Of a stretch of 56,827 bases of DNA, positions 4,923 through 53,020 are shown one piece after another. The translations under genes were made by a program, and so were the position numbers. The notes beneath the pieces were generated by a model. It was not told the origin of the DNA, ran no database searches, and saw nothing but the letters and a program-made list of their open reading frames with translations. This DNA is from Magnetococcales bacterium DCbin4 (lineage in GTDB: Bacteria; Pseudomonadota; Magnetococcia; Magnetococcales; UBA8363), in assembly GCA_002753735.1 (NCBI GenBank), contig PEAN01000024.1, positions 1 through 56,827 on the forward strand, written 5' to 3'. The stretch's first letter is position 1, and the number at the start of each line of letters is the position of its first letter.

Positions 4923-4956
4923 CAAAAAGCCCCGCCTCTTTTCAAAGGCGGGGCTT
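4923..4956 (-). terminator. Rho-independent terminator after dsrP
   Basis: A perfect 11-bp stem (AAGCCCCGCCT pairing with AGGCGGGGCTT) has an 8-nt loop. On the minus strand it is followed by a run of five Ts. It sits between the dsrP stop and the gspC ribosome site, so it should end the dsr transcript before the secretion genes. Confidence 0.8.
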
Positions 4957-37262: not shown

Positions 37263-39083
37263 CTAACCGGTCGGGGTCTCCATTTCGATCCGGTCGAGGA
37301 GGCGGTAGAAGGTGCGGCGGCTGATGCCCAATACCCGGGCCGCTTCGGTCTTGTTCCAGCGGGTTTGTTCCAGGGCGCGGAGGAGGTCGTCTGCTTCGGG
37401 GCGGCGTTTTCTCAGTTTCTGCGTCAGGATGCGTTGCGCAGTCTCCATGGCGGGTGGCAGGTCGATATCGGAGCGGGGGAGGGGGGGAACCGGGGGGGTG
37501 GGTTCCAACCGTTCTTCCTTGGAGGGGTCCAACGGCAGGTGGGTGGTGAACAGGGTGGTGCCGTTGCACAGCAGGCAGGCGTGTTCCAGGGGGTTCTCCA
37601 ACTCGCGCACGTTGCCCGGCCAGGGGTGGTTGAGCAGATGCCGCAACACCCCCCCTGAAAACTTGTCGATCCTTTTCTTGAATACATGATTGAACTTTTC
37701 CAAAAAATGTTGCACCAGCAAGGGAATGTCCTCCCGTCGCTCCCGCAGCGGGGGCAGGTGGGGGTTGACCACGTTGAGGCGATGGTACAGATCTTCCCGA
37801 AAGGTTCCGGCGCGTACTTTCTGCTTCAAATCCTGATGGGTGGCGACGATCAGGCGAAACTGGACCCGGATGGGGGTTGAGTCGCCAACCCGTTCAAACT
37901 CCCGTTCCTGGATCACCCGCAGCAACTGAAGTTGCATCCGTGGGGAGATGTCGCCGATTTCATCTAAAAACAGGGTGCCGGAGTTGGCCCGCTCGAACCG
38001 GCCAATCCGGTCCTTGAGTGCCCCGGTGAAGGCCCCCTTGACGTGACCGAACAGTTCGCTTTCCAACAGTTGTTCCGACAGGGCGGCGCAGTTGACCTTG
38101 ACCATGGGGACCAAGGTCCAGTCGGGTCGTTGGCGGTGGATCGCCTCGGCGACCAATTCCTTGCCGGTCCCACTCTCGCCCGAAATGAGTACCGTCGTGT
38201 TGACCGTCCCCAGGTGTTCGATCAGATCGTATAATTGGAGCATCTTCGGACTCTTGCCGATCAAACGGTGAAACTGATGGCGTGTTTCGAGTGATTGTTC
38301 CAGGGTGACCAAATAGGTTTGATTGTGAACGACCAGGACACAGCCATGCACCGTGCCATCTTCATGCAATACCGGGGTGACGGTGATCTCGTTGACCTGA
38401 ACCGGTCCCCGGGCCATGACGCATTCCAGGCGGTTGATGTGGCATGGGGTTCCCGTAGACAGGGTTTGCCGGACTGCCGCAACACAACCGCCATTGCATC
38501 CCACGAGTTGATCCTGAAAAGGGGTTCTGATGGCACGAACGGGATCGATCTGGCAGAGGGTTTTGGCCGAGGGGTTGATTTCCTGGATGATGCCGCCGGA
38601 GTCGATTAAAAAAAGGGCGTCGCGGACACTGCCGAACAAGGCGTGAAGATTTTTTTGTACCCGCAGATGTTCCTGGCGCAAAAAATGGTGTTGAAGCGCT
38701 TGTTGCGTCACTTTTTCCAGGTCAGCCAGACGGATGGGTTTGGTCAGATAATCAAAGGCCCCCAACCGCAGGGCTTCGGTAGCGCTTTGCAGGGTGGGGA
38801 AACCGGTGATCATGATGACGGGACATTCCAGATTCCGGTGTTTGATTTCATGCAGCAGTGCGATCCCATCCCGCCCTCCCAACATGATGTCGGAAAAAAT
38901 CAGGTCGAATCGTTGTGTGTTCAACTGCGCCATGGCGGCCTGGAAGCTGTCGGCACCGGTGGTACGATGTCCCATGCCGGTGAGCAGTTGTTCCAAGAGC
39001 AGCCGCATCGAGGGTTCATCATCGATGATCAGTACATTGACGGTTTTTCTTTGCGGTGAGGCGGGCGAGATCGGAGCGGTCAT
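37263..39083 (-). CDS. NtrC-family sigma-54 response regulator
   Basis: A 606-residue activator. The receiver (residues 15-130) has VLIIDDEP and phosphoacceptor [12 protein letters not shown]-like domain follows ([25 protein letters not shown]). The AAA+ domain (about 275-510) carries Walker A GESGTGKE and the sigma-54 contact loop GAFTGA, so it can open sigma-54 promoters. The Fis-type HTH is at the very end ([23 protein letters not shown]). It overlaps the upstream kinase by ATGA. A longer open frame to 39395 is antisense-like and rejected. The best target in view is the sigma-54 promoter at 45643 beyond the other end of its own operon. Confidence 0.93.
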
Positions 39084-41053
39084 TGGAGGACTTCCTGGAT
39101 CGTCGCAATCAATGCCGATTGCAAAAACGGTTTGGACAGCCGCCGCCGGATTCCCGCTTCCGCCATTTCTTCCAGCAGGTCGGCATCGCCCCGGCCCGAC
39201 ATCAATATGACCGGGAAACCGGGGCGGATCTGCTGAAAACGCCGCGCCAGTTGAATGCCGGTCAACTCCGGCATGCCCTGGTTGGTCAACAACAGATCGA
39301 AGGCATCTTTCCGTTCGAGGAAACGGCGCCAGCCATCCTGGCTGCTGGTGGTCCCCGTGACCGTGTAGCCCATGGAGGTGAGCTGCGACTTGCACAGGTA
39401 GACCACGTCCAGGTCGTCATCGATCACCAGTACATGTCCCCCTTGTCGTGATGGGGTATTGGAAATCGTGCGTTCAAACGTTGAATCAGGGGTGCCAATC
39501 GTCGTGGCCAGGGGGAGTCGGACGTGAAACAGGCTTCCTTTCTCCGGGATGCTGCGCGCCATAATGCTGCCCCCCAGGTGTTGCACGATGCCATGGACGA
39601 TGGACAACCCCAGACCCGTCCCTTCGCCCAGGGTGCGGGTGGTGAAAAACGGGTCGAACATGCGTGACGCGGTGTCTTCGTCCATTCCCTGGCCTTCATC
39701 TTCGACCATGAGATCGACCGTTTTGCCTTCGGGATCATTGACGAGCCGGATGGCAAGGGTGCCGTTTCTCCCCTTCATGGCATGGACGGCGTTGGTGAAC
39801 AGATTCATGATGATTTGCTGAATCTGAACCGGTTGGCACAGGACGGGTCCCGCCGTTCGGTCGAGATCCACCGTCAGGGCGACGCCAGGGGGGAGATGGG
39901 GGGTGAGCAGTTTGAGCGCTTCCTTGATGATCGGGGTCACCGCAACCGGTGCCATGGGGACCGGCCCCGATTCCCGGCTGAACATCAAAATTTGCCGTAC
40001 CAGTTCCGCCGCCCGCAATCCCGCATCCAGAACGACCTCCAGATGGTTTTTGATCAGGGGTTGCCCTTCCACCGACCGCAGCGCCATCTCGGTGAAGCCG
40101 ATGATGCTGGCCAGCATATTATTGAAATCATGGGCGATGCCGCCCGCAAGGATGCCGATGGCCTCCAGTTTGCGCTCCCGCGCCAAATGGTGTTCCAGGT
40201 GACGGTTTTTCTCCTCCGCCAGTTTTTGTTCGGTGATGTCCGTGGCCACTCCGGCGATCCGGTGGACCCGGCCCGAACCATCACGGACCGGATAGGCCCG
40301 GTCGCGGATCCAACGCAGGGTGCCATCGCGGCGGACGATGCGGTATTCCAGGTGGAGGGTGGTCGTCTGCCGTCCGCCAAGGGCCGCTTCAATCCGTGGA
40401 CGGTCTTCGGGATGGATCGCCTGGAAACGGGAGGGGGGATGGCGATACAGTTCGGCTGGGGTTCGATCCCAGACGGTTTCATAGGCGGGGCTGACATACA
40501 AAAGCTGTTCCGATTCCAGGTCGAACAGCCAGAAAACCTCGTTGATGTTTTCCGCCAGTTGCTGAAATTTTTCCTCGCTCTCCATCAGGGCATGGGAGCG
40601 GACATCCACCATCTCCTCAAGTTTGAGTTGCCGCCGTCGCAACGTGTCTTCGGCCTCCTTGTCGCGCAGAATGACCTGGATTTTGGCGGTCAGTTCCCGG
40701 GCGTCGATGGGTTTGGAGATGAAATCCCTGGCCCCCGCTTCCAGGGCGCGGGTCCGGACCTCGGCGGTGGAATCATGGGCGGTGATGAGCAGAATGGGGA
40801 TGTTGGCGGTCCGGGGATCCTCCCTGAACCGGCGGCACATTTCGATGCCATCCATGCCGGGCATGCGCAGATCGATCAACGCCCCGTCGAGTGGGGTGTG
40901 CAGCGCGATGGCCAGACCCCGGGGGGCCGAAAAGGATTCAACCAGGTCACATCCCGGAATGAATTCGTCGATCAACTCCTTCAGGACAAACAGGTTGTCC
41001 GGTTTGTCATCGACCAAAAGCAGTCGGGGGGCGGGTTTGCCGGCATCATTCAT
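39080..41053 (-). CDS. REC-PAS-histidine kinase-REC protein
   Basis: A 657-residue soluble kinase. Order of domains: receiver (residues 10-125, LIDLRMPGMDG), coiled coil, PAS (165-285, with FQAIHPEDRPRI and HRIAGVATDITE), HisKA with H308 in GGIAHDFNNML, HATPase (EDEGQGMDEDTASRMFDPFFTTRTLGEGTGLGL), and a C-terminal receiver (VLVIDDDLDVVYL). The HDFNN form of the H-box is typical of NtrB-like kinases that pair with NtrC activators, and the NtrC gene overlaps it by 4 bp. Its ATG overlaps the preceding hybrid kinase by 8 bp. Confidence 0.92.
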   Translation of the reverse strand: MNDAGKPAPRLLLVDDKPDNLFVLKELIDEFIPGCDLVESFSAPRGLAIALHTPLDGALIDLRMPGMDGIEMCRRFREDPRTANIPILLITAHDSTAEVRTRALEAGARDFISKPIDARELTAKIQVILRDKEAEDTLRRRQLKLEEMVDVRSHALMESEEKFQQLAENINEVFWLFDLESEQLLYVSPAYETVWDRTPAELYRHPPSRFQAIHPEDRPRIEAALGGRQTTTLHLEYRIVRRDGTLRWIRDRAYPVRDGSGRVHRIAGVATDITEQKLAEEKNRHLEHHLARERKLEAIGILAGGIAHDFNNMLASIIGFTEMALRSVEGQPLIKNHLEVVLDAGLRAAELVRQILMFSRESGPVPMAPVAVTPIIKEALKLLTPHLPPGVALTVDLDRTAGPVLCQPVQIQQIIMNLFTNAVHAMKGRNGTLAIRLVNDPEGKTVDLMVEDEGQGMDEDTASRMFDPFFTTRTLGEGTGLGLSIVHGIVQHLGGSIMARSIPEKGSLFHVRLPLATTIGTPDSTFERTISNTPSRQGGHVLVIDDDLDVVYLCKSQLTSMGYTVTGTTSSQDGWRRFLERKDAFDLLLTNQGMPELTGIQLARRFQQIRPGFPVILMSGRGDADLLEEMAEAGIRRRLSKPFLQSALIATIQEVLQ

Positions 41054-44000
41054 GTCGGGCGGGCAACCATTTGTTCATGAGGGTGGAAAGACGGGTCAGA
41101 TCGATGGGTTTGGAAATGTAATCATCACACCCCGCGGCGATCATCCGTTCCTGGTCGCCCTTCATGGCGCTGGCGGTGACGGCGATCACGGGAATTCCCT
41201 TGATGGCGGGGTCCCCCTTGATCGAACGGGTGGCATCGAAACCGTTCATGATCGGCAGTTGCATGTCCATCAATACCAGGCCCGGCTTGAAGGAACGGGT
41301 TTTGTCGATGGCTTCCCTGCCATTGCCGGCGGTGATGTAGCTGTGCCCCAGGTCGTCGAGAATGGCCGTCAGGGCGAGCAGGTTGTCGGCTTTGTCCTCC
41401 ACAATCAGCACTGGGGAGGCCGCCGGATGTGCGCGTGTGGCGTGAGGGGGCACGGTTTTCGGGTCGGCCAGAAGATTACGGATGCAGGTGAGGAGTTGAT
41501 CGCGATTCAACCGTCCTTTTTGAATCAGTTCTTCGACCCGGTTGCGGATCAACATCCCCCGTTCCCCGGTGTTCAACTCCTTGGCGGTCAGCACCAGAAT
41601 CGGAAGATGGGCGGTGCGTGGCTGGGCGCGCAGTTGGTGGACCACCTCGAACCCATCCATTCCCGGCATCATCAGATCCAGGATGACAAGGGCGGGTATC
41701 TCGCCCTGGTCGAGCGCGGCCAGCGCCTCCATCCCGCCAGAGGTCTCGATGACTTCGTAGCCGGTATCTTCCAGTACGGAACGGATCTGCAACCGGGCGA
41801 CTTCGTTGTCATCCACAACCAGGATGCGTGATGGGGCGGTTTCAAGGGGTGGGGCGATACGGTGATTCCTGATGGGCAGGGTCGCCTCCCGGGGTTGGAT
41901 GGGGAGGATCAGGGTGAACGTGCTTCCGTGTCCGGGGGTGCTCTGCACCTGAATCCGGCCACCGATCATGTCGGCCAGTTTGCGGCTGATGGTCAATCCC
42001 AACCCCGTCCCCTCATGGTGCCGGCTGGCGGAACCGTCCACCTGGGTGAAGGCGTTGAAGATCGATTCCCAATGTTCCGGGGCGATTCCGGGGCCGCTGT
42101 CGCGGACCCAGAAGATCAGTTGCCCTCCGTCCCGGCTCAGACCGAGTTCCACTTCTCCCTTGGATGTGAACTTGATGGCGTTCGACAGCAGGTTCAACAG
42201 AATTTGCCGTACCTTGTCCTCGTCACAGTGGATGGATGGGACCGGTTCGGTGTGAAGGTTCAAGGTCAACCCTTTGCTCTCGGCCAGGGGTCGAACGGTT
42301 TCGATCACCCGGGCGACAGTGTCGGCGGGATCCATGTCGACGGGGGTCAGTTCCATCTGACCCGATTCAATCTTCGACAGATCCAGGATGTCGTTGATCA
42401 GGTTCAACAGTTGACGCCCGTTGCGTTCGATGACCGTCAGATATTCCCGCTCCTTGGCGGGATTCTTCCCGACCCCCTTGCTGATCATCAGTTGCGACAG
42501 GGTCAAAACGCTGTTCAACGGGGTACGCAGTTCATGACTCATGTTGGAGAGGAATTCCGATTTGAGACGGTCCGCCTTTTCCACCTGTCTTTGTTTGAGT
42601 TCAAGTTCCCGGGCCTGTTGGCGCAATTCTTCGGTCTGATGGTGCAGTTCTGCGGTCTGCTCGCGCAATTGCCGCGATTGAGCCTGCAATTCCTGGTTGT
42701 TGGCTTCCAGTTCATGGTTGCTCTGTTGCAGCTTTTCCGCCATCCGTTCCGTCCGGGCATGGGACAGGGCGTCGGCCAGGGCCATGCTGAACAGGCTTTG
42801 ACCCACCTTGAGGAATTCGGTCACCTCATGCGACATCGCCTCAAGGCTGGCCAGGACCAACACACCCAGGATCCGTTCCTGGAAGATCAACGGAATGTGC
42901 ATGATGGTCCGGGGGACGCCATCACCGGCGATGGTCGGATGGAGAAAGGGGGTGTCGGGTGGGATCTCTTCCAGGACATAGGGCCCTTTGTGTTGTATGG
43001 CGCGTCCGACGCCCCCTTCCATGTCGTGGAGGTATGCCCGCAGATGGTCCTGCCGGTCCATGCCGATGGCATGGGCCAGATTGAATTGTGATTCCTGTTC
43101 TTCATCCCGGATGTAGATGGCTCCCACCTGGCTCCGGGTATCGGTCAAAAGGGCATCCAATCCCAGGGCAAGGAGATCCTTCAGTCCACGGGCCGAAACC
43201 AATACCCGGGAAAGTTGCAATACCTTCTCCTGGATTGCCTGATGTTGTTGTTGTCGCTCCAATGCCCGGTTGAGTTGCTGCGTCTGTTCCGCCAAATGGC
43301 CCATGGTCCGTTGAACGGTATCGGCCATCCGGTCGAAGGTATTGGAAAGGAATCCGATTTCATTGCGTTCGTTGAGGTGGGAGCGAATGTTCATGTCCCC
43401 CTGGGAAAACTGTTCCGCGACCCTGCTCAACTGGATGATGGGACGACTCAACCGGGATGACATCCACCACGCCAGGGTGAGCAGCAATAACAGGGCGGTG
43501 GCACTGATCATCAGGACGATCCTGATTTCATAGTTTAAAAATCCCAAGGTTTCCTCACGATCCATTTGAACGACGAATCCCCATTCCCGATCCTGTTCGA
43601 AGGGGATATGGCGGTAGGCGGCAAGCACCGGTCGTCCGCGATAATCCAGACTGTCCATCGTTCCTTCCCGTCCCGAGATGGCAAGGAGGGCCGGGGGGGT
43701 CTGGAGGCGATCATGCAGGGGTTGGGCGATGCGGCCGTCGGGCAGGGGATGTTTGAGGTGCGTCAGGATGGCCAGATTCTTATCGAATAAAAACGCTTCT
43801 CCCCGGGTCCCCAGTCCGTCGCCCGTATGCATCAAAGGGCCAAACTGTGCTTCGGAGTCGGCGGTTAAAATGAGCAGGGCGATGGTCTGCCCTTCATCGG
43901 TGGTGATGGGGTGAACAATATGCAGCAGGCCATTGGTGTTGGTGGCATCCCGGGAGAGGTGGATGCTGGCGGTTTCGTTCAAGCGGGGCGCCGTCTTGAA

Positions 44001-44504
44001 CCATTCCAGGTCAATTCGCCCTTTTTTGTTCGGGGCGCGGGTCGAGACGAGGGTGACACCTTCCCGAAGGTCGGCGATTTCAATCCACGAGTAGATCGCA
44101 TAGGTTTGTTGTACCCGTTGGAGCATTTCCAGCAGTTCTTTGGAGGTGGATTCCCGGGCAGAACCCTCCTGGAGCAGCCGCAGGTTTTGGACCAGGAGTG
44201 GGTTGTGGGCGATGATATGGGCATCCCCCTTGCGGTCTTCCAGCCAGCGTTGCAACCGTTCCTTTTTGGTATCGGCCACCAGATCCAGGTAACGGAATCC
44301 CTGCTCGATCTCGATTCCCTGAAATCCCTTCCAATCGGTCAGGGGAATACCGGAGATGCTGAAAAATTCCAGGAGGAGCAGAATGGGGACGAACAGGAGG
44401 ACGAACCCGGCGATCATCTGGGAACGGATACTGCGGAACCTTCCGGGCTGGTCGGGGGTCGGGCGTGGTTCGGCGGGGGCTTCAAGATGACCTGATTCGT
44501 TCAC
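41046..44504 (-). CDS. Membrane hybrid histidine kinase with two receivers
   Basis: A 1152-residue sensor. A membrane helix (about 28-48) precedes a Cache-like periplasmic domain of about 280 residues, then TM2 (about 328-347), HAMP, GAF (about 425-570), a long Gln/Glu-rich coiled coil, HisKA with H near 656 in SNMSHELRTPLNSV, HATPase (DSGPGIAPEHWESIF) and two receivers with LVILDLMMPGMDG and LVLMDMQLPIMNG. The start is GTG 44504 with GGGA 10 nt upstream; no ATG precedes the membrane segment. It follows cheR by 18 bp. The periplasmic Cache domain makes it the likely signal input of the operon. Confidence 0.92.
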   Translation of the reverse strand: MNESGHLEAPAEPRPTPDQPGRFRSIRSQMIAGFVLLFVPILLLLEFFSISGIPLTDWKGFQGIEIEQGFRYLDLVADTKKERLQRWLEDRKGDAHIIAHNPLLVQNLRLLQEGSARESTSKELLEMLQRVQQTYAIYSWIEIADLREGVTLVSTRAPNKKGRIDLEWFKTAPRLNETASIHLSRDATNTNGLLHIVHPITTDEGQTIALLILTADSEAQFGPLMHTGDGLGTRGEAFLFDKNLAILTHLKHPLPDGRIAQPLHDRLQTPPALLAISGREGTMDSLDYRGRPVLAAYRHIPFEQDREWGFVVQMDREETLGFLNYEIRIVLMISATALLLLLTLAWWMSSRLSRPIIQLSRVAEQFSQGDMNIRSHLNERNEIGFLSNTFDRMADTVQRTMGHLAEQTQQLNRALERQQQHQAIQEKVLQLSRVLVSARGLKDLLALGLDALLTDTRSQVGAIYIRDEEQESQFNLAHAIGMDRQDHLRAYLHDMEGGVGRAIQHKGPYVLEEIPPDTPFLHPTIAGDGVPRTIMHIPLIFQERILGVLVLASLEAMSHEVTEFLKVGQSLFSMALADALSHARTERMAEKLQQSNHELEANNQELQAQSRQLREQTAELHHQTEELRQQARELELKQRQVEKADRLKSEFLSNMSHELRTPLNSVLTLSQLMISKGVGKNPAKEREYLTVIERNGRQLLNLINDILDLSKIESGQMELTPVDMDPADTVARVIETVRPLAESKGLTLNLHTEPVPSIHCDEDKVRQILLNLLSNAIKFTSKGEVELGLSRDGGQLIFWVRDSGPGIAPEHWESIFNAFTQVDGSASRHHEGTGLGLTISRKLADMIGGRIQVQSTPGHGSTFTLILPIQPREATLPIRNHRIAPPLETAPSRILVVDDNEVARLQIRSVLEDTGYEVIETSGGMEALAALDQGEIPALVILDLMMPGMDGFEVVHQLRAQPRTAHLPILVLTAKELNTGERGMLIRNRVEELIQKGRLNRDQLLTCIRNLLADPKTVPPHATRAHPAASPVLIVEDKADNLLALTAILDDLGHSYITAGNGREAIDKTRSFKPGLVLMDMQLPIMNGFDATRSIKGDPAIKGIPVIAVTASAMKGDQERMIAAGCDDYISKPIDLTRLSTLMNKWLPARHE

Positions 44505-44522: not shown

Positions 44523-45434
44523 TCATGGTTGCGGGGCATGCGTTTGAAGTTTGCGGTAAATCCGGTTGTGTCGGTCCAGTGGAAAAAACAACGACTCCAG
44601 TTCCTGGTGGATGTGTTCCGCTTCGCCCAGAACCAGAAACCCCCCTTCATCCAACGAATCGTGAAACTTGCGGAGGATCATTTCCTGACTCGCCGGGGAA
44701 AAATAGATCAGTACGTTGCGGCACAGGATGAGGTCGAAGGTGCCGAAGATGCTGTCGGCAGGGGTGGCGTTTCCGGGGGTGGTCAGGTCGTGGTGGGAAA
44801 ACAGCACCATGCCGCGGATGGTGTCGCATACCTGGTACCGCCCCTCCCGTTCGGTGAAATACCGGTGGAACATCCCCAGTTTGACGGTGTCGAGCCGTTC
44901 CCCGGGATAGATCCCCTTGCGGGCGAACTCCAGGGTATCAGGTTGGATGTCGGTGGCGAAGATATGGCAGGCGCACCCCCGGGTCCGCCCTTGGACCTGG
45001 TCATGGATCAACATGGCGATTGAATAGGCCTCCTCGCCGGAACAACACCCGGCACTCCATACCCGGACCTCCTTTTTTCCCAGGCGTCTTTTGCGATCGA
45101 TGATCTCGGGCAGTACCTGTTGATCGATCAATTCGAAGACGATGGGGTTGCGAAAGAAGGCGCTGACCTCGACGGCCATGAGTTTGATCAGATGCTGACA
45201 TTCTTCGGGATTCTCAATCAGGCAATCCAGGTAGTCCCGCAGGCCGAAGCGGTTGATTTCCGCGATCCGTTCCGCGAGGCGGCGACGCAGCAGATCGGGG
45301 TCATATTGCCCAAGATCGCATCGGGTTGCCGTTCGCACCTGGTTGATGATGGCCGTCAACCAGTGATCGTGGGATGTGTGGCGTGGATCCATTCCCGGCC
45401 TGCAGGGTTCCTGATCGTTATCTGACGTTCCCAT
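44523..45434 (-). CDS. cheR: CheR-type MCP methyltransferase
   Basis: Adds methyl groups from S-adenosylmethionine to receptor glutamates. The 303-residue product has the CheR N-domain (DPDLLRRRLAERI, VEVSAFFRN) and the methyltransferase core with WSAGCCSGEEAYSIAML, FATDIQPDTLEFARKG and FDLILCRNVLIYF. The beta-subdomain loop (RYFTEREGRYQVCDTIRG) is short, as in pentapeptide-independent CheRs. It is the first gene of the leftward cheR-kinase-kinase-NtrC operon. ATG 45434 was chosen; ATG 45392 is possible. No cheB is in the window. Confidence 0.92.
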   Translation of the reverse strand: MGTSDNDQEPCRPGMDPRHTSHDHWLTAIINQVRTATRCDLGQYDPDLLRRRLAERIAEINRFGLRDYLDCLIENPEECQHLIKLMAVEVSAFFRNPIVFELIDQQVLPEIIDRKRRLGKKEVRVWSAGCCSGEEAYSIAMLIHDQVQGRTRGCACHIFATDIQPDTLEFARKGIYPGERLDTVKLGMFHRYFTEREGRYQVCDTIRGMVLFSHHDLTTPGNATPADSIFGTFDLILCRNVLIYFSPASQEMILRKFHDSLDEGGFLVLGEAEHIHQELESLFFPLDRHNRIYRKLQTHAPQP

Positions 45435-45518
45435 CGTATTCCAAACATGAATGCTCAGAAATGGTTTTTCTTCCGGGCCGTTGATTTGTGTCATCAACGA
45501 TGCAGATTTGGCGCAAAA

Positions 45519-45546
45519 GACACATATGGCATGTGCCATATGTGTC
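45519..45546. promoter_or_regulatory. Perfect 12+12 bp palindrome, candidate activator site
   Basis: The left arm is GACACATATGGC and the right arm is GCCATATGTGTC, separated by ATGT. The centre is about 137 bp upstream of the start site predicted from the sigma-54 promoter, a normal distance for NtrC-type enhancers. A half-site-like TGTGTCATCAA also occurs 54 bp to the left, about five helical turns away. Confidence 0.7.
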
Positions 45547-45642
45547 ATCAAGTATGTTCAAGGCTTCGCTGTTTTGTGCGCATATTGTGAATTTAGATAA
45601 CGACTCCAATGTAATACATGTTCGTCTTACGGGTTGGTCATG

Positions 45643-45659
45643 TTGGCATGCTCGCTGCA
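45643..45659 (+). promoter_or_regulatory. Sigma-54 promoter for the carbonic anhydrase-MCP pair
   Basis: TTGGCATGCTCGCTGCA matches the sigma-54 consensus TTGGCACG-N4-TTGCA at all but two fixed positions. The invariant GG (45645-45646) and GC (45657-45658) are exactly 10 bp apart. It predicts a start near 45670 and a leader of about 105 nt. A TATAAT at 45682 with a poor -35 is a possible secondary sigma-70 start. Confidence 0.75.
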
Positions 45660-45775: not shown

Positions 45776-46606
45776 ATGAGACGGTTGGTGACTCTGATGT
45801 ATGTGGGGGCCGCGGTGGCGGGTCTGGGGGAGGTGTGGGCGGGGGATGCGCAGCATTCGGCGGCTCAAGGCAGTGGTGGTGCCCATTGGGGATATACGGG
45901 ACCGGAGGGACCGCAACAATGGGGCACGCTGGGTTATCCGGTGTGTGCTTCGGGTCAGAACCAGTCGCCCATCGATATCACTGCGGCAGCAGCGGGCGAC
46001 CTCGATGAGATCGTGTTCAGTTACACCCCGAGTCCGATCCAGGTGAAAAACAATGGCCATACCATCCAGTTCGATTACAAGGGGGGGAGCTTCATCACCG
46101 TGGGGGGGAAACGGTTTGATTTGGCTCAGTTCCATTTCCACAGCCCGAGTGAAAACACGATCCAGGGCAAGGCATTCCCCATGGAGGTTCATCTGGTACA
46201 CAAGAGTGCCGAGGGGGAACTGGCGGTGGTGGGCATCATGATGAATGCCGTGGAACAAAAAGAGAAAGCGGCAGGGGGACATGGAGAAGGCGGTGATGCC
46301 TGGGGGTTGGTTCTGGGGGCGCTGCCCGCTGCCAATGGATTGAATCTGACTTCCGAAACCACCATCGACGCCGCTCAACTGTTGCCCCATGACCGGAGCT
46401 ACTATCATTGGATGGGATCGTTGACCACACCACCCTGTAGCGAGGGGGTGCGGTGGTTTTTGCTGAAGGAACCGGTAGGGGTTGATGCCCGACAGGTGGC
46501 GCGATTCCGCACCATTTTCGACAACAATGCCCGTCCCGTCCAACCCTTGAACGCCAGAAACCTGTATCTCAAAGAGGTCGGTGGTGGTTCGGGCAAGGGA
46601 CATTGA
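45776..46606 (+). CDS. Periplasmic alpha-class carbonic anhydrase
   Basis: Converts CO2 and bicarbonate. The 276-residue product has a Sec signal peptide ending around VWAG, the entry [20 protein letters not shown], zinc ligands H120 and H122 in [10 protein letters not shown] and H139 in MEVHLVH, and the [13 protein letters not shown] substrate pocket. These are the full alpha-CA signatures, so an active periplasmic zinc enzyme is expected. ATG 45776 follows GGAGGGGAG. A His/Gly-rich insertion ([11 protein letters not shown]) occurs near residue 165. It overlaps or abuts the chemoreceptor gene and probably shares the sigma-54 promoter. Confidence 0.95.
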
Positions 46607-46632
46607 AGAGGGTTTTCGTGAAGGGGGATACG

Positions 46633-48387
46633 ATGAATGTTCTTGAAAACATGAAGTTGCGCACCCAAATCCTGGGGCTGGTGGCGGTATTGATTGTTTT
46701 GATGATTGGTTTGGCGGGCTATGGGATTGTGCAGATGGGGGTGATCGGGGGCGAGATCAAGGGGGTGGCGGAACAGGATATGCCCATGACAAAGATAATC
46801 TCAGAGATTACCGCGCATCAATTGGAGCAATCGATCCTGTTTGAGCGGGTGTTCCGTCATGGAGAAGTGATGAGTGCGAGCAAGCGTGCCGCAGATGGAT
46901 TTGAGCATGCGAAAAAAGGGTTTGCCGCATTGAGCGGCCAGGTGGATGAGGAGATCAAAAAGGGGGAAACCCTGGTCGAAGCGGCCATCGGGATGGCGCG
47001 TTCTGCCGATGAACGAAAGGAATTCGAGGCAATCGCGGCGCAGTTGAAGAAGATCGAAACCGAGCATGATGGTTTTGAAAAACATGCCGAGCATGTGTTT
47101 GAACTGTTGCAACATGGGGCGATCCATGAAGCCAACGAAGCGGGTGAGGCGATTGAAAAGGAGGAAGAGGAACTCAACCAGGAGTTGGATGCCTTCATCC
47201 TCAAGGTGGAGGAGTTTACCGAGCAGGCGATGAAACATGCGGAGCATACTGAAACGACCGCGTTTGGCATGATGACGACCTTGACCCTGGTGGGTACGGT
47301 GTTCGGCATTTTGATCGGCGTCATGGTGGTACGATCAATTCTTCGATTGTTGGGATGCGAACCGATTCAGATTCGACGCATGGCTTCCCTGATGGGACAG
47401 GGTGATGTTTCCAGTTCGATCAATGCGATATGTACCCGATCAAATGCTACGGGCGTCCTGGCCGACATGTTGACCATGGCGGAGAATCTGCGGCGGATTG
47501 TGACGGAAACCAAAACCATTTCGGACAACGTGGCGGCGGGAAGCCATGAATTGAACGAAGCGGCCCAGACATTGGCCCAGGGGGCGACCGAACAGGCGGC
47601 TTCGATTGAAGAGACCTCTTCCGCCATGGAGGAGATGGCCTCCAACATTCAAAACAACACCGACAACGCCCAGCAGACGGAAAAACTTTCCTCCCGTGCC
47701 GCCAAGGATGCGAGTGAGGGGGGGAAGGCAGTTGATGAGGCGGTCGTCGCCATGAAGGAGATCGCCACCAAGATTTCCATCATCGAGGAGATCGCCCGGC
47801 AGACCAATCTGTTGGCGTTGAATGCCGCCATCGAGGCGGCGCGGGCGGGGGAACATGGCAAGGGATTCGCGGTGGTGGCCGCCGAGGTGCGCAAATTGGC
47901 GGAACGCAGCCAGACCGCAGCAGGGGAAATCAGTCAACTTTCCGCTTCCAGCGTCCAGGTGGCGGAGCGGGCCGGGGGGATCATCAACACCCTGGTTCCC
48001 GATATTCAGAAGACTTCGGAGCTGGTACAGGAAATTGCCAGTGCCAGTGACGAACAGAACGCGGGGGCGGGACAGGTCAATCAGGCGATTCAACAGTTGG
48101 ACCAGGTGATTCAAAACAATGCCGGGGCATCCGAGGAGATGGCGGCGACGGCGGAACAACTTTCCAGTCAGGCGGAAAGTTTGCAACGGACGATGGCGTT
48201 TTTCAAATTGGACGCTGCCGTATCCCGGACTCCGCCGCGGAAGGTCGCTTCGGGGAAGAAAACATCCCGGGCAGCAGCGCCTGCACCCAGTCGTTCACCC
48301 CGCATGATCGCCCCTCCTGCCGCGACGACCGTACCAGCGGTTTCCCATGACAAAGGGCGGGCCGATGATGAATTTGAGAGTTTTTAG
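46633..48387 (+). CDS. Methyl-accepting chemotaxis protein
   Basis: A 584-residue receptor. TM1 is at about residues 12-35, a helical periplasmic domain of about 170 residues follows, then TM2 (about 218-238), a HAMP-like linker ([19 protein letters not shown]) and the signalling domain with the conserved hairpin tip [31 protein letters not shown]. The C-terminus has a flexible Pro/Ala/Arg-rich tail of about 60 residues ending in DDEFESF, which fits the x-[HFYW]-x-x-[HFYW] pattern for a CheR/CheB docking pentapeptide. ATG 46633 is 5 nt behind GGGGG; GTG 46618 is an alternative. It follows the carbonic anhydrase by 26 bp. Confidence 0.93.
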
Positions 48388-48518: not shown

Positions 48519-48968
48519 TTAGCGGCCTTTGTTTTCATTTGAACCTGAAGTGTCCAGAAACGGGTTGTGGAATCTGACCCCTTCCAGTAATCTTCCATGC
48601 TGAAAATCTTCGCTGACCACGATTGCACAGCCAGCCTCTTTGGCGCAGGCCCACAACATGGCATCCCAAAAAGACAGGTTATGATTTTGCACCGCACGGA
48701 GCGCCTTGGTGATTGTGGAAATCCCTGCGGGTTGCACTTGGAATAAAGCCAGCCAGTCCCGCACCTGGTCGGAGGCTTCCGCAATGGGCATTTTGCCTTT
48801 GGCGGTTGCTGCCCGGAAGAATTCTCCCAAAGATTGGAGCATCAACACGCAGTTCTCCGCGACAGCTTGATCCAGCAGCGCCGAAGCAATTGCGTGCTTC
48901 CTGCCCGCCTCGCGGTCCAAGGCATAGATAAGGATGTTGGTGTCAAAGGTGTACCGCTCACCGCTCAT
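48519..48968 (-). CDS. PIN-domain toxin (VapC-like)
   Basis: A 149-residue PIN RNase. The Mg-binding acidic residues are visible: D9 in TFDTNILIYALD, a central E in LGEFFRAA, D in SFWDAMLWACA and E/D in VVSEDF. ATG 48968 overlaps the antitoxin stop region by 11 bp. Free of its antitoxin, such a protein cleaves specific RNAs. A longer frame to 49007 overlaps the antitoxin and has no ribosome site. Confidence 0.9.
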   Translation of the reverse strand: MSGERYTFDTNILIYALDREAGRKHAIASALLDQAVAENCVLMLQSLGEFFRAATAKGKMPIAEASDQVRDWLALFQVQPAGISTITKALRAVQNHNLSFWDAMLWACAKEAGCAIVVSEDFQHGRLLEGVRFHNPFLDTSGSNENKGR

Positions 48969-49206
48969 GGAGTTCATCACGGGAAACCGGTTCTCCTCCC
49001 AGGGCATAGCCCTGCTGCATCCTCATTCGGGTGCGTTCACGGGCTGCTTGCCGTTCTTCGCACAACACCTGTTCACGGGGCAGAGGCATCAGACGGGCAA
49101 TGGGTTGTCCGCGCCGGGTGATGATGATTTCTTCTCCAGCTTCAACTGCTTTGATATAACGAGCCAAATGCTGGTTGGCCTCACTCAGGCTGATTCGTTG
49201 TTCCAT
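48958..49206 (-). CDS. Phd/YefM-type antitoxin
   Basis: An 82-residue antitoxin with the Phd/YefM DNA-binding fold: RISLSEANQHLARYIKAVEAGEEIIITRRGQPIARLMPL. The C-terminus (EERQAARERTRMRMQQGYALGGEPVSRDELHER) is the disordered toxin-binding tail. It is first in the operon and overlaps the PIN toxin start by 11 bp. Confidence 0.92.
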   Translation of the reverse strand: MEQRISLSEANQHLARYIKAVEAGEEIIITRRGQPIARLMPLPREQVLCEERQAARERTRMRMQQGYALGGEPVSRDELHER

Positions 49207-49254: not shown

Positions 49255-49484
49255 TTCCACCAAGGATGTGCAGCGTTTTCCGGCAACACGGTCAAGGTTT
49301 GCGCGAGAAATCCTTTTCTTGATTTTCTGGGTGTCGAGCTATTAATATTTTTTTGTATAGATCAAATTTTAAAATCTCTGTGCCAACCCACATCATCGTA
49401 ATTGACTTGATCTCGACAATAAAGCAACATGAAACCCGTTCGGGAATGGGAAAACGATTGAGGAGAAAAAGGGGGCTTAAGCGC

Positions 49485-50978
49485 ATGTCGGGCACGCAAT
49501 GGTTGGAAATGCTGCGGATGGTTTGGGTGGTGGTCGTGTTTTTGGGGTCTCCACTGGTTGCGCAGGCGGAGGAAGAGACGAAGGCGAACATTCCCCCTGT
49601 GGTCAAGGAAAACGCCCCTGCGGCCCCGATGGAGACCTTTCCCGCGGTGACGCCGGCGGAACCGGAAAAAATTTCGAGAAAAACATTCGATGCCTTAAGC
49701 AAGGAGAGCGCCACCTGTGTCTCCTGCCATATTGAGGACAATCGGAGTTTGTATCAGCAATGGGGCGGCTCCAAACATTACGGGGCCAATGTGGGTTGTT
49801 ATGAATGCCACCGGGCGGAGCAGGGGGATCCCGATGCCTTCATGCACAAAAAATTCCTGATTTCCATCATCGTCAGTCCCAAGGATTGTGGACGGTGCCA
49901 CGAACGGGAAACCAGGGAATTCACCCAGAGCATCCATGCCCGGGCGGCGGACATCAAGGAGAGTCCCGCCTACACCCTGGCGACCACGGTTCAGGGGATG
50001 CCTGATGAATCAATGTCTGCGGCAGGAAAACATGGCTGTCTTCAGTGTCATGGTTCCGAGGTCAAGGTCAAATCCAGCGGCAAGCTGGAGGCGACGACCT
50101 GGCCGAACAGTGGCATTGGCCGCATCAATCCGGATGGTTCCCGGGGGGCCTGTACCGCCTGTCATCAGCGGCATGAATTTTCCCAGATTCAGGCCCGGCG
50201 TCCCGAAGCCTGCGGCAAGTGCCATCGGGGTCCCGCCCATCCGCAAAAAGAGATTTATGATGAATCCAAACATGGCATCAATTTTTACGCCAATCTGGAT
50301 CGGATGAATCTGCAATCACCCAAATGGATCCCCGGCGAGGATTATGATACCGGTCCCACCTGTGCCACCTGTCACATGTCGGCCACTGTCGAATCCCCTT
50401 TGACCCATGATGTGAGTCATCGCATCAGTTGGAACCTCAAGACGCCTGTTTCCCATAAGATGGGTGAGGGGCCTGAAAAATCGGAAGTTTCATGGAAGGA
50501 GAATCGCAAACGGATGCAGGAGGTGTGTATTTCCTGCCATACCGAGACCCTCGTCGAAAATTTCTATCAGCAGTATGATAACGTCGTTGTCCTGTACAAC
50601 AACAAGTTTGCCCAGCCGGCCCAGGAGGTGATGGACAGTCTGGCGAAATCGGGCTTGCGCTCCCCGGCCAATTTTGACGATCCCATCGAATGGTCCTGGT
50701 TTGAATTGTGGCACCAGGCGGGACGACGCATCCGTCAGGGGGTATCGATGCAGGCGCCTGATTATGTGCAATGGCAAGGGTTCCATGATATTTCACAGTT
50801 GTTCTACACCCGATTCGTCCCCCAGGCGGAAACCTTGATCGCCCAGGCCCGGAGTGCAGGGAAGACGGAGGCTGCCGCTGAAGTCGCCAAGGTGCTGGAT
50901 GCCATCCTTGCCCGTCCCGAACATGCGTGGTTCCGGGGCGGCAAGGGGACGGAACAGGGCGGCAAGGTCGTTCCCTGA
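49485..50978 (+). CDS. Octahaem HAO-like cytochrome c
   Basis: A periplasmic multihaem oxidoreductase of the hydroxylamine-oxidoreductase family. The 497-residue product has a signal peptide (VWVVVVFLGSPLVAQA) and exactly eight CxxCH sites: CVSCH, CYECH, CGRCH, CLQCH, CTACH, CGKCH, CATCH and CISCH. The spacing and the motifs KHYGANVGCYECH and VSPKDCGRCHERETREFTQSIHA are HAO-like. The region after the last haem (NFYQQYDNVVVLYNNKFAQPA) resembles HAO proteins of epsilonproteobacteria that act on nitrite/hydroxylamine reductively. Whether a crosslinking Tyr for haem P460 is present cannot be decided by eye. ATG 49446 is an alternative start. The next gene starts 2 bp after the stop. Confidence 0.87.
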   Translation: MSGTQWLEMLRMVWVVVVFLGSPLVAQAEEETKANIPPVVKENAPAAPMETFPAVTPAEPEKISRKTFDALSKESATCVSCHIEDNRSLYQQWGGSKHYGANVGCYECHRAEQGDPDAFMHKKFLISIIVSPKDCGRCHERETREFTQSIHARAADIKESPAYTLATTVQGMPDESMSAAGKHGCLQCHGSEVKVKSSGKLEATTWPNSGIGRINPDGSRGACTACHQRHEFSQIQARRPEACGKCHRGPAHPQKEIYDESKHGINFYANLDRMNLQSPKWIPGEDYDTGPTCATCHMSATVESPLTHDVSHRISWNLKTPVSHKMGEGPEKSEVSWKENRKRMQEVCISCHTETLVENFYQQYDNVVVLYNNKFAQPAQEVMDSLAKSGLRSPANFDDPIEWSWFELWHQAGRRIRQGVSMQAPDYVQWQGFHDISQLFYTRFVPQAETLIAQARSAGKTEAAAEVAKVLDAILARPEHAWFRGGKGTEQGGKVVP

Positions 50979-50980
50979 CC

Positions 50981-53020
50981 ATGGTGTGGCGTCTGTCGCA
51001 TGTGATCCGGTGGTTGCCGAAACGCCTGGTCGGGGTGATGATCCCCATCGGGTGGGCGGTGGCGTGGTTGCTGAGTTTGGGGGTGGCTTTGGCGGCTCCG
51101 GGAGGGGAGGCCCAGAGTCCCGAAGAGATCAAGCCCATCGTCGTGGATGGCAACACCTCCGACGTTCGTTGTTACGGGTGTCATGGGGAGAAGGGGTTCA
51201 GCGTTCCCCTGGGCGAGGGGGTCCGTTCCAAGCAACGTTCCCTCTACATCGACCGGGAAAAGTTGCAAAACAGTGTCCATGGCAAACGGTTGTGCGTTGA
51301 ATGCCATCGTGACATCACCCTGATCCCCCATCGGTTGAAGGAAAAGGGGGAGGTGGATTGTGTCCGCTGCCACAGCGATCTGCACCGCAAGGGGTGGGGC
51401 CGCATGCAGGGGCATGATCCGGTGGTGTTGGACAAGGTGGTGCAAAACATCGCCTCCTATATGGAATCGGTCCATGGCCAGCCGCGCAAGGATGGTTCCG
51501 GCAAGTTGAACGCCGGTTGTCCCGACTGCCATGAAGGACATACCATCGCTGCCAAGGGGACCCCCGAACGGGAGGAGTTCCGTCAGTCCACTCCGGTGGT
51601 GTGTGGCCGCTGCCATCAGGAGCAGTTGCGTTTGTATGAAAATTCGGTTCACGGTGCGCAGGTATTGCGCTTTGGCAATACCAAGGCGGCGGTCTGTGCC
51701 GATTGTCATACCTCACATAAAATTTCATCCCCCCATCAAGATCCCGCACGGTTGGTGATCACCAAGAGTTGTGGCAACTGTCATCAGGATTCCTACGAAA
51801 CCTATGCCAAGACCTACCATGGGCAGGTCAATGTTTTGGGATACGCCCATACCGCAAAATGTTTCGATTGCCATTCGGCCCATTCCAACACCCGTGCTAC
51901 CAGTCCCGATTCCCCTGTTTCAGGAGCGAACCGCGAAAAAACCTGCAAAAAATGTCATGCCGGGGTCTCTCCGGGATTCCTGACCTTTCTTCCTCATGGC
52001 AACTCCCATGATTTTGACCGGTATCCTGAATTGTGGTTGGCGTCAAAATTCATGATTTTATTGCTGGTGGGGGTGTTTCTGTTCTTCTGGACCCATTCGG
52101 CGTTGTGGTTTTATCGTGAATCGCGGGAAAAGGCGGCGGGATTGTTGCCGGTCATCCATGAATCGCCCGCAGTGGCGGGGGATCCCCGGACCTATGTACA
52201 ACGCTTTCCCGCCTTGTGGCGTCTGGCCCATCTGACCTTTGCCCTTTCCATCATGACGTTGGCCTTTACCGGGATGACGGTGTTGTATCCCGATGCCTTC
52301 TGGGCCCCCTGGGTGGCACGTTTCCTGGGTGGGGCGCCGGTGATGGCCATCGCCCATCGGGTGGCGGCGGTCATGTTTTCCCTGGTGTTCTTCGTCCATC
52401 TGGGCGGGGTGTTCTATCGCATTTTCTGGAAGAGCCGCACGACATTTCGTTGGTTCGGCCCGACTTCGCTCGTTCCCAACTGGCAGGATTTGAAGGATTT
52501 CATCGCCATGGTGCGCTGGTTCTTCGGCAAGGGACCGCGACCGGTGTTTGATCATTGGTCTTATTGGGAAAAATTTGACTATTGGGCACCGTTCTGGGGC
52601 ATGTTCATCATCGGTTCCTCGGGGCTGATCCTTTGGTTCCCGAAGGTTGCGGGTGAATTCCTTCCCGGCTGGGTATTCAATGTCGCGACCATCATTCACG
52701 GTGAAGAGGCATTCCTGGCGGTGGTGTTCATCTTTTCGGTCCACTTTTTCAACTGCCATTTCCGTCCGAGCAAATTTCCTCTGGATATCATGATGTTTGT
52801 CGGGCGTATGCCGGTGGATGAATTCAAACATGAACGGCAGGTGGAATATCGGAGGCTTAAGGAAAGTGGCCAACTGGATCGTGTTCTGGTACCTCCCCCC
52901 TCTTCCCGACTGAAATTCTGGTCGCGGGTTTTGGGATTTACCTTGATTACCATTGGCTTGACCTTGTTGTTCATCACCTTGAGCGGGTTTAGCCTGCACT
53001 TGTGGGAAGGAAAACTGTAA
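50981..53020 (+). CDS. Nonahaem c / cytochrome b fusion (CbcL-like quinone oxidoreductase)
   Basis: A 679-residue inner-membrane protein. After a signal/anchor segment (IPIGWAVAWLLSLGVALA), nine CxxCH sites occur between residues 60 and 330: CYGCH, CVECH, CVRCH, CPDCH, CGRCH, CADCH, CGNCH, CFDCH and CKKCH. From residue 355 there are about five membrane helices with His pairs of a FdnI/HydC-type cytochrome b (WRLAHLTFALSIMTLAFTG, MAIAHRVAAVMFSLVFFVHLGG, TIIHGEEAFLAVVFIFSVHFFN). Geobacter CbcL has the same nine-haem plus diheme-b layout. It should pass electrons between quinone and the octahaem partner encoded 2 bp upstream. Confidence 0.88.
   Translation: MVWRLSHVIRWLPKRLVGVMIPIGWAVAWLLSLGVALAAPGGEAQSPEEIKPIVVDGNTSDVRCYGCHGEKGFSVPLGEGVRSKQRSLYIDREKLQNSVHGKRLCVECHRDITLIPHRLKEKGEVDCVRCHSDLHRKGWGRMQGHDPVVLDKVVQNIASYMESVHGQPRKDGSGKLNAGCPDCHEGHTIAAKGTPEREEFRQSTPVVCGRCHQEQLRLYENSVHGAQVLRFGNTKAAVCADCHTSHKISSPHQDPARLVITKSCGNCHQDSYETYAKTYHGQVNVLGYAHTAKCFDCHSAHSNTRATSPDSPVSGANREKTCKKCHAGVSPGFLTFLPHGNSHDFDRYPELWLASKFMILLLVGVFLFFWTHSALWFYRESREKAAGLLPVIHESPAVAGDPRTYVQRFPALWRLAHLTFALSIMTLAFTGMTVLYPDAFWAPWVARFLGGAPVMAIAHRVAAVMFSLVFFVHLGGVFYRIFWKSRTTFRWFGPTSLVPNWQDLKDFIAMVRWFFGKGPRPVFDHWSYWEKFDYWAPFWGMFIIGSSGLILWFPKVAGEFLPGWVFNVATIIHGEEAFLAVVFIFSVHFFNCHFRPSKFPLDIMMFVGRMPVDEFKHERQVEYRRLKESGQLDRVLVPPPSSRLKFWSRVLGFTLITIGLTLLFITLSGFSLHLWEGKL

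Follow-up and report, generated by a model that had tools for sequence, protein, structure and literature searches.

The window examined here is a 56,827-bp stretch of DNA from Magnetococcales bacterium DCbin4. A short palindrome at 45519-45546 separates two divergent groups of genes. To the right, an alpha-type carbonic anhydrase gene and a gene for a methyl-accepting chemotaxis protein (MCP) make up the presumed target operon. To the left, the cheR gene is followed on the minus strand by two kinase genes and, at the end of this divergent operon, by the gene for an NtrC-type activator. The features are as follows.

37263-39395, minus strand: NtrC-type activator, receiver-PAS-AAA+(GAFTGA)-Fis-type HTH; ORF as listed
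39080-41053, minus strand: second hybrid kinase, receiver-PAS-HisKA-HATPase-receiver
41046-44504, minus strand: hybrid histidine kinase, dCache-HAMP-GAF-HisKA-HATPase-two receivers
44523-45392, minus strand: cheR, starting at a conserved ATG
45434-45475, minus strand: second conserved block upstream of cheR, a candidate cheR promoter
45519-45546, no strand: palindrome, 13+13 bp around TG, comprising half-sites A and C, which lie 21 bp apart from start to start with N14 between them
45643-45659, plus strand: sigma-54-like -24/-12 element TTGGCATGCTCGCTGCA, with a counterpart in all five orthologous loci
45776-46606, plus strand: alpha-type carbonic anhydrase, first gene of the presumed target operon
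46603-48387, plus strand: MCP, second gene of the presumed target operon

The preliminary description of this DNA reported perfect 12+12 bp arms around ATGT at 45519-45546. These arms are found at that place, and they extend to 13+13 bp around TG since the A and T of the ATGT loop pair too. Among the perfect short-loop inverted repeats of the window, the palindrome is the longest and the sole one with arms of at least 12 bp and a loop of at most 8, and repeats of this kind occur in none of ten shuffled windows. A genome-wide search, suggested in the same description with many unrelated copies as the adverse outcome, located the sequence only once in the draft genome of 4.52 Mb when up to three mismatches were allowed. 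A dispersed repeat was rejected as the identity of the palindrome on account of this single copy. A second inverted repeat at 4927-4956 has GC-rich arms of 11+11 bp, an 8-base loop and a terminator-like look.

As read from the aligned loci, the anatomy of the palindrome is that of a half-site array and not of a single 12+12 bp palindrome. Half-sites with the consensus GRCACAW occupy four slots, A'(9-10 bp)A-N5-B(9 bp)C, and this arrangement is kept across five orthologous loci (the window and loci in genomes G007, G006, G002 and G022), always in the region between the divergent genes. The palindrome consists of slots A and C, which are separated by two turns of the helix, with B inside it and A' alongside.

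45486-45492, minus strand: extra half-site, TTGTGTC on the plus strand, 54 bp before C, with counterparts in G007 and G006
45510-45516, plus strand: slot A', GGCGCAA, one mismatch to GRCACAW, 9 bp before A
45519-45525, plus strand: slot A, GACACAT, exact half-site here and in all five loci
45531-45537, minus strand: slot B, ATGTGCC on the plus strand, exact half-site that forms with A the core dyad 45519-45537 (N5 spacer)
45540-45546, minus strand: slot C, ATGTGTC on the plus strand, exact half-site, 9 bp after B

Exact matches fill 13 of the 20 slots over the five loci, the consensus and the slots having been picked after the sequences had been seen. These comprise five matches in A, three each in A' and B, and two in C. 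The remaining seven slots carry one to five mismatches, such that slot C of G006 and slot B of G002 are effectively empty. The intergenic DNA around the array is for the most part diverged: the 19-bp core is identical to that of the window at 17 of 19 positions in both G007 and G006, as opposed to 19 of 48 positions in G007 and 17 of 48 in G006 for the adjacent segment 45547-45594. Conservation with G007 is also good in two stretches towards cheR (33/48 and 25/39 identical), so the array is not the sole constrained part of the intergenic region. The sequence TGTGTCATCAA, which had been described as a half-site-like element recurring 54 bp away, is indeed present at 45487-45497 and 45541-45551, but the repeat alone is not significant (two matches in the window at up to one mismatch versus 1.3 expected). 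The aligned counterpart of the distant half-site is TTGTGTCAT in G007 and CCGTGCCAT in G006, and its ATCAA extension is not conserved in these two loci.

Exact dyads of this type are rare. Among 49 genomes, the N14 dyad occurs exactly at eight places and the N5 dyad at seven, three of them in each case at this locus. The exact N14 dyads at the locus are A-C in the window and in G002 and A'-B in G006, and the exact N5 dyad is A-B in the window, G007 and G006. Thus, four of the five loci carry at least one exact dyad, and G022 has neither. Elsewhere in the window's own genome there is one further N5 site, on contig C83 in a stretch without ORFs of at least 90 aa, and one N14 site, inside ORFs on contig C46. 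No array is seen by eye at either place. Promoter-like matches near the C46 dyad all have three mismatches, and none are found near C83. A global regulator is unlikely as the binder, because C83 and C46 hold the only other exact dyads in this genome and neither is accompanied by an array. Matches to the core at one mismatch occur at 2 to 11 distinct places per genome across the genus, versus 0 to 5 for the reversed control; of eight viewed in context, seven fall within ORFs, the exception being the one on C83. Counting half-sites with up to one mismatch per 60 bp gives four for the window, a value reached by 4 of 237 other tiles of the same genome, and three for G007. This lax density count supports a cluster only weakly and was counted as a result against it. 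It is too permissive, and exact slots and exact dyads were therefore used instead.

The -24/-12 consensus of sigma-54 promoters used for scoring is YTGGCACGNNNNTTGCW. An element with two or three mismatches to it is found in all five loci, downstream of the array centre by 118 bp in the window, 117 bp in G007 and G002, 109 bp in G006 and 94 bp in G022. A match of this quality is by itself within chance (five in the window at up to two mismatches versus 4.8 expected), and the argument is its recurrence at the same place over the loci. In the window, TTGGCATGCTCGCTGCA at 45643-45659 implies a transcription start at about 45670, in agreement with the 137 bp previously given between the palindrome centre and the sigma-54 start. 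The consensus quoted in the accessible part of PMC6615313 resembles YTGGCACGNNNNTTGCW.

Of the eight ORFs scanned in the neighbourhood, only that of the NtrC-type protein was identified as encoding a DNA-binding regulator. Orthologues of this protein (E values of 2.6e-258 or better) are present in the five genomes with the array and in no other of the 61 compared, the best remaining match being at 2.6e-157. CheR orthologues at 2.1e-112 or better likewise come from the window's own genome, G007, G006, G002 and G022, five of the 100 genomes listed, with the next match at 1.2e-46. The GAFTGA and Walker A motifs are present in all five activators, and the recognition helices share SRRT-F/L-YR, a region where five paralogues differ. 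The activator gene is linked to the array at four of the five loci. G007, G006 and G022 retain the whole block with both kinases, the activator and the MCP. The G002 contig ends inside the first kinase gene, and the activator and most of the second kinase are located on another contig. In the window, 316 bp (39080-39395) belong to both the activator ORF and the kinase gene. Stops at residues 33, 70 or 75 occur in two of the activator orthologues, which suggests that at least 75 residues at the beginning are untranslated and that the true start probably lies after residue 75 of the listed ORF. The genome has one RpoN gene.

What can be seen directly in the sequences is the array and its conservation, the sigma-54-like element that is kept with it, the linked GAFTGA activator and the joint presence of these components. 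The conservation, position and rarity of the array, together with its co-occurrence with the NtrC-type gene, give good support to an enhancer for the sigma-54 promoter of the rightward operon. We consider it probable that the palindrome is the central part of a putative upstream activating sequence through which the linked activator drives the carbonic anhydrase-MCP operon, and this NtrC-type protein is the most likely binder of the array. Under this model, activator dimers would dock on the GRCACAW half-sites through their Fis-type HTH domains, and the linked hybrid kinases, of which one has a dCache sensor domain, would phosphorylate the receiver domain of the activator. The activator would then assemble into an AAA+ ring and, by DNA looping, reach sigma-54 polymerase 94-118 bp downstream, such that the operon is transcribed. 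If so, GRCACAW provides a specific candidate binding motif for an uncharacterised activator of a Magnetococcales lineage, and a carbonic anhydrase and a chemoreceptor would be linked to one two-component switch.

Whether the same array serves both operons, as had been proposed, depends on the type of promoter that is considered. The part of this proposal that concerns the rightward operon is supported, and a shared enhancer acting through sigma-54 is not supported. Elements with up to three mismatches that point towards cheR are absent from all five intergenic regions. The distance to cheR also had to be revised. Homology of the listed CheR protein starts at its residue 14-15 for two of the four orthologues and at its residues 13 and 17 for the other two, and its residue 15 corresponds to the ATG at 45392. 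This onset places the conserved start at 45392 instead of 45434, and the centre of the palindrome is consequently about 140 bp from cheR, not the approximately 100 bp given earlier. Regulation of cheR from the array through another type of promoter is possible. In three loci, the block at 45434-45475, between the array and cheR, retains the sequences CAT-G/C-GTAT-CCAAAC and TCAG-AATG-TTTTT. A consensus scan of the block gives no sigma-70 match, and it is possibly a cheR promoter or a site for another protein.

A palindrome transcribed as part of the cheR leader might instead act as an RNA hairpin, and minus-strand folding is unusually stable in the window (z -4.4), G007 (-5.9) and G002 (-8.6). 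However, the corresponding values are modest in G006 (-2.1) and not special in G022 (-0.85), and the half-sites that pair differ by locus, being A-C in the window, A-B in G006, and both A-C and A'-C in G002. The purine at position 2 of the half-site varies independently. Covariation is not clearly above that of shuffled alignments, in which the observed value was reached by 500 of 500 for A-B and 83 of 500 for A-C, with weak power from five sequences. What is kept across the loci is the half-site letters rather than their pairings. There is no Rfam match and no terminator-like site, and the inferred start of the carbonic anhydrase transcript is located downstream of the palindrome. A structure acting only as RNA, an outcome raised in the preliminary description, is disfavoured by these results and very improbable. 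Isolated inverted repeats certainly exist, for example the 11+11 bp repeat at 4927-4956, but a functionless chance palindrome or mobile repeat is the most improbable explanation of all, given that the palindrome is present in a single copy, belongs to an array found in five orthologous loci and has no equal in shuffled windows.

A different protein is a more serious competitor, although still an unlikely one. The array could be the operator of an unrelated dimeric repressor or activator, for instance of a type that recognizes overlapping palindromes, with one or both operons under its control and the sigma-54 activator binding elsewhere. Four half-sites spaced at 9-12-9 amount to two dyads that overlap with an offset of 9 bp, as is known for proteins that bind as two interlocked dimers. 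Moreover, the genome encodes proteins with 17 strong Sigma54_activat matches (19 in all), and another of these activator paralogues could bind. Against an unrelated regulator, the dyads are found almost nowhere else in the genome, which makes a global regulator unlikely, and the sole linked regulator among the scanned ORFs co-occurs with the array in all five genomes.

As an upstream activating sequence of the linked activator, the array would belong to a kind of element that is already well known (PMC6615313, PMC6296734 and PMC3162934, each as far as its accessible text goes). Upstream activating sequences of the NtrC family are inverted-repeat sites upstream of a -24/-12 promoter and beside the activator gene, as is the case here. 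Enterobacterial NtrC recognizes TGCAC-N5 to 7-GTGCA with a Fis-type HTH. The array resembles this site in having a dyad with a short central spacer, but has other half-site letters and extra flanking half-sites 9-10 bp away. The 9-12-9 spacing also departs from the single dyad that is usual for NtrC-type activators. In the Clostridiales, according to the accessible part of PMC6615313, most sites of NtrC-family activators precede the promoter by 100-250 bp, 65% of the activators act on a single operon, multiple sites are common, and 15 groups use TGT-N10-12-ACA. The letters here are instead GRCACAW in a close four-slot array, and no match to TGT-N10 to 12-ACA is seen by eye in the A-B or A-C dyad, which read ACA...TGT. 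Targets of CbrB in Pseudomonas putida carry one subsite in one orientation and two in the other upstream of a sigma-54 promoter, with 20-25 bp between the centres of contiguous sites (PMC6296734, accessible part). The A-C distance of 21 bp is similar. Unlike the non-palindromic TGTTAC subsites of CbrB described there, the half-sites in the window form a perfect palindrome of GRCACAW letters with an interleaved 12-bp register. Literature searches for divergent NtrC/sigma-54 enhancers with inverted repeats found no paper, and those for carbonic anhydrase, chemotaxis or sigma-54 in Magnetococcales, for the half-site letters and for carbonic anhydrases with chemoreceptors found no description of the site.

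A bolder version of the enhancer model would treat the 9-12-9 array as a distinct geometry. Two dimers would interlock on the overlapping dyads A'-B and A-C (21-22 bp each) and pre-position the ring. The array would then control a module dedicated to inorganic-carbon chemotaxis, with the carbonic anhydrase, the receptor, CheR, the kinases and the activator transferable as one unit. We regard this version as speculative and, on present evidence, decidedly unlikely.

Related genes are found in other surroundings elsewhere in the order. Five MCP or carbonic anhydrase/MCP loci without the activator lineage (two in G014 and one each in G020, G040 and G026) were used as controls, taking for each locus a single start and the 500 bp that precede it. 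None of them has a pair of half-sites or a sigma-54-like element by the start. Three single exact half-sites and one promoter-like match do occur, within coding sequence as judged by eye. Activator paralogues with 43-45% identity and another recognition helix are encoded on the same contig in G014 (C117) and G040 (C199). From these other surroundings, the regulator of the carbonic anhydrase/MCP module seems to have been swapped.

Membership of the operon also varies. In G007 and G002, the carbonic anhydrase gene is missing from the locus, and the array, promoter and MCP are retained. A short 5'-end remnant of the gene is seemingly present in G007 (locus L003, 1063-1260, minus strand), as judged by eye. 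In four of the five control loci (L101-L105), the MCP gene is directly preceded by one for carbonic anhydrase. Downstream of the MCP gene in the window are an ORF for a PIN-domain protein on the opposite strand (48519-49007) and multihaem cytochrome genes (49353-53020).
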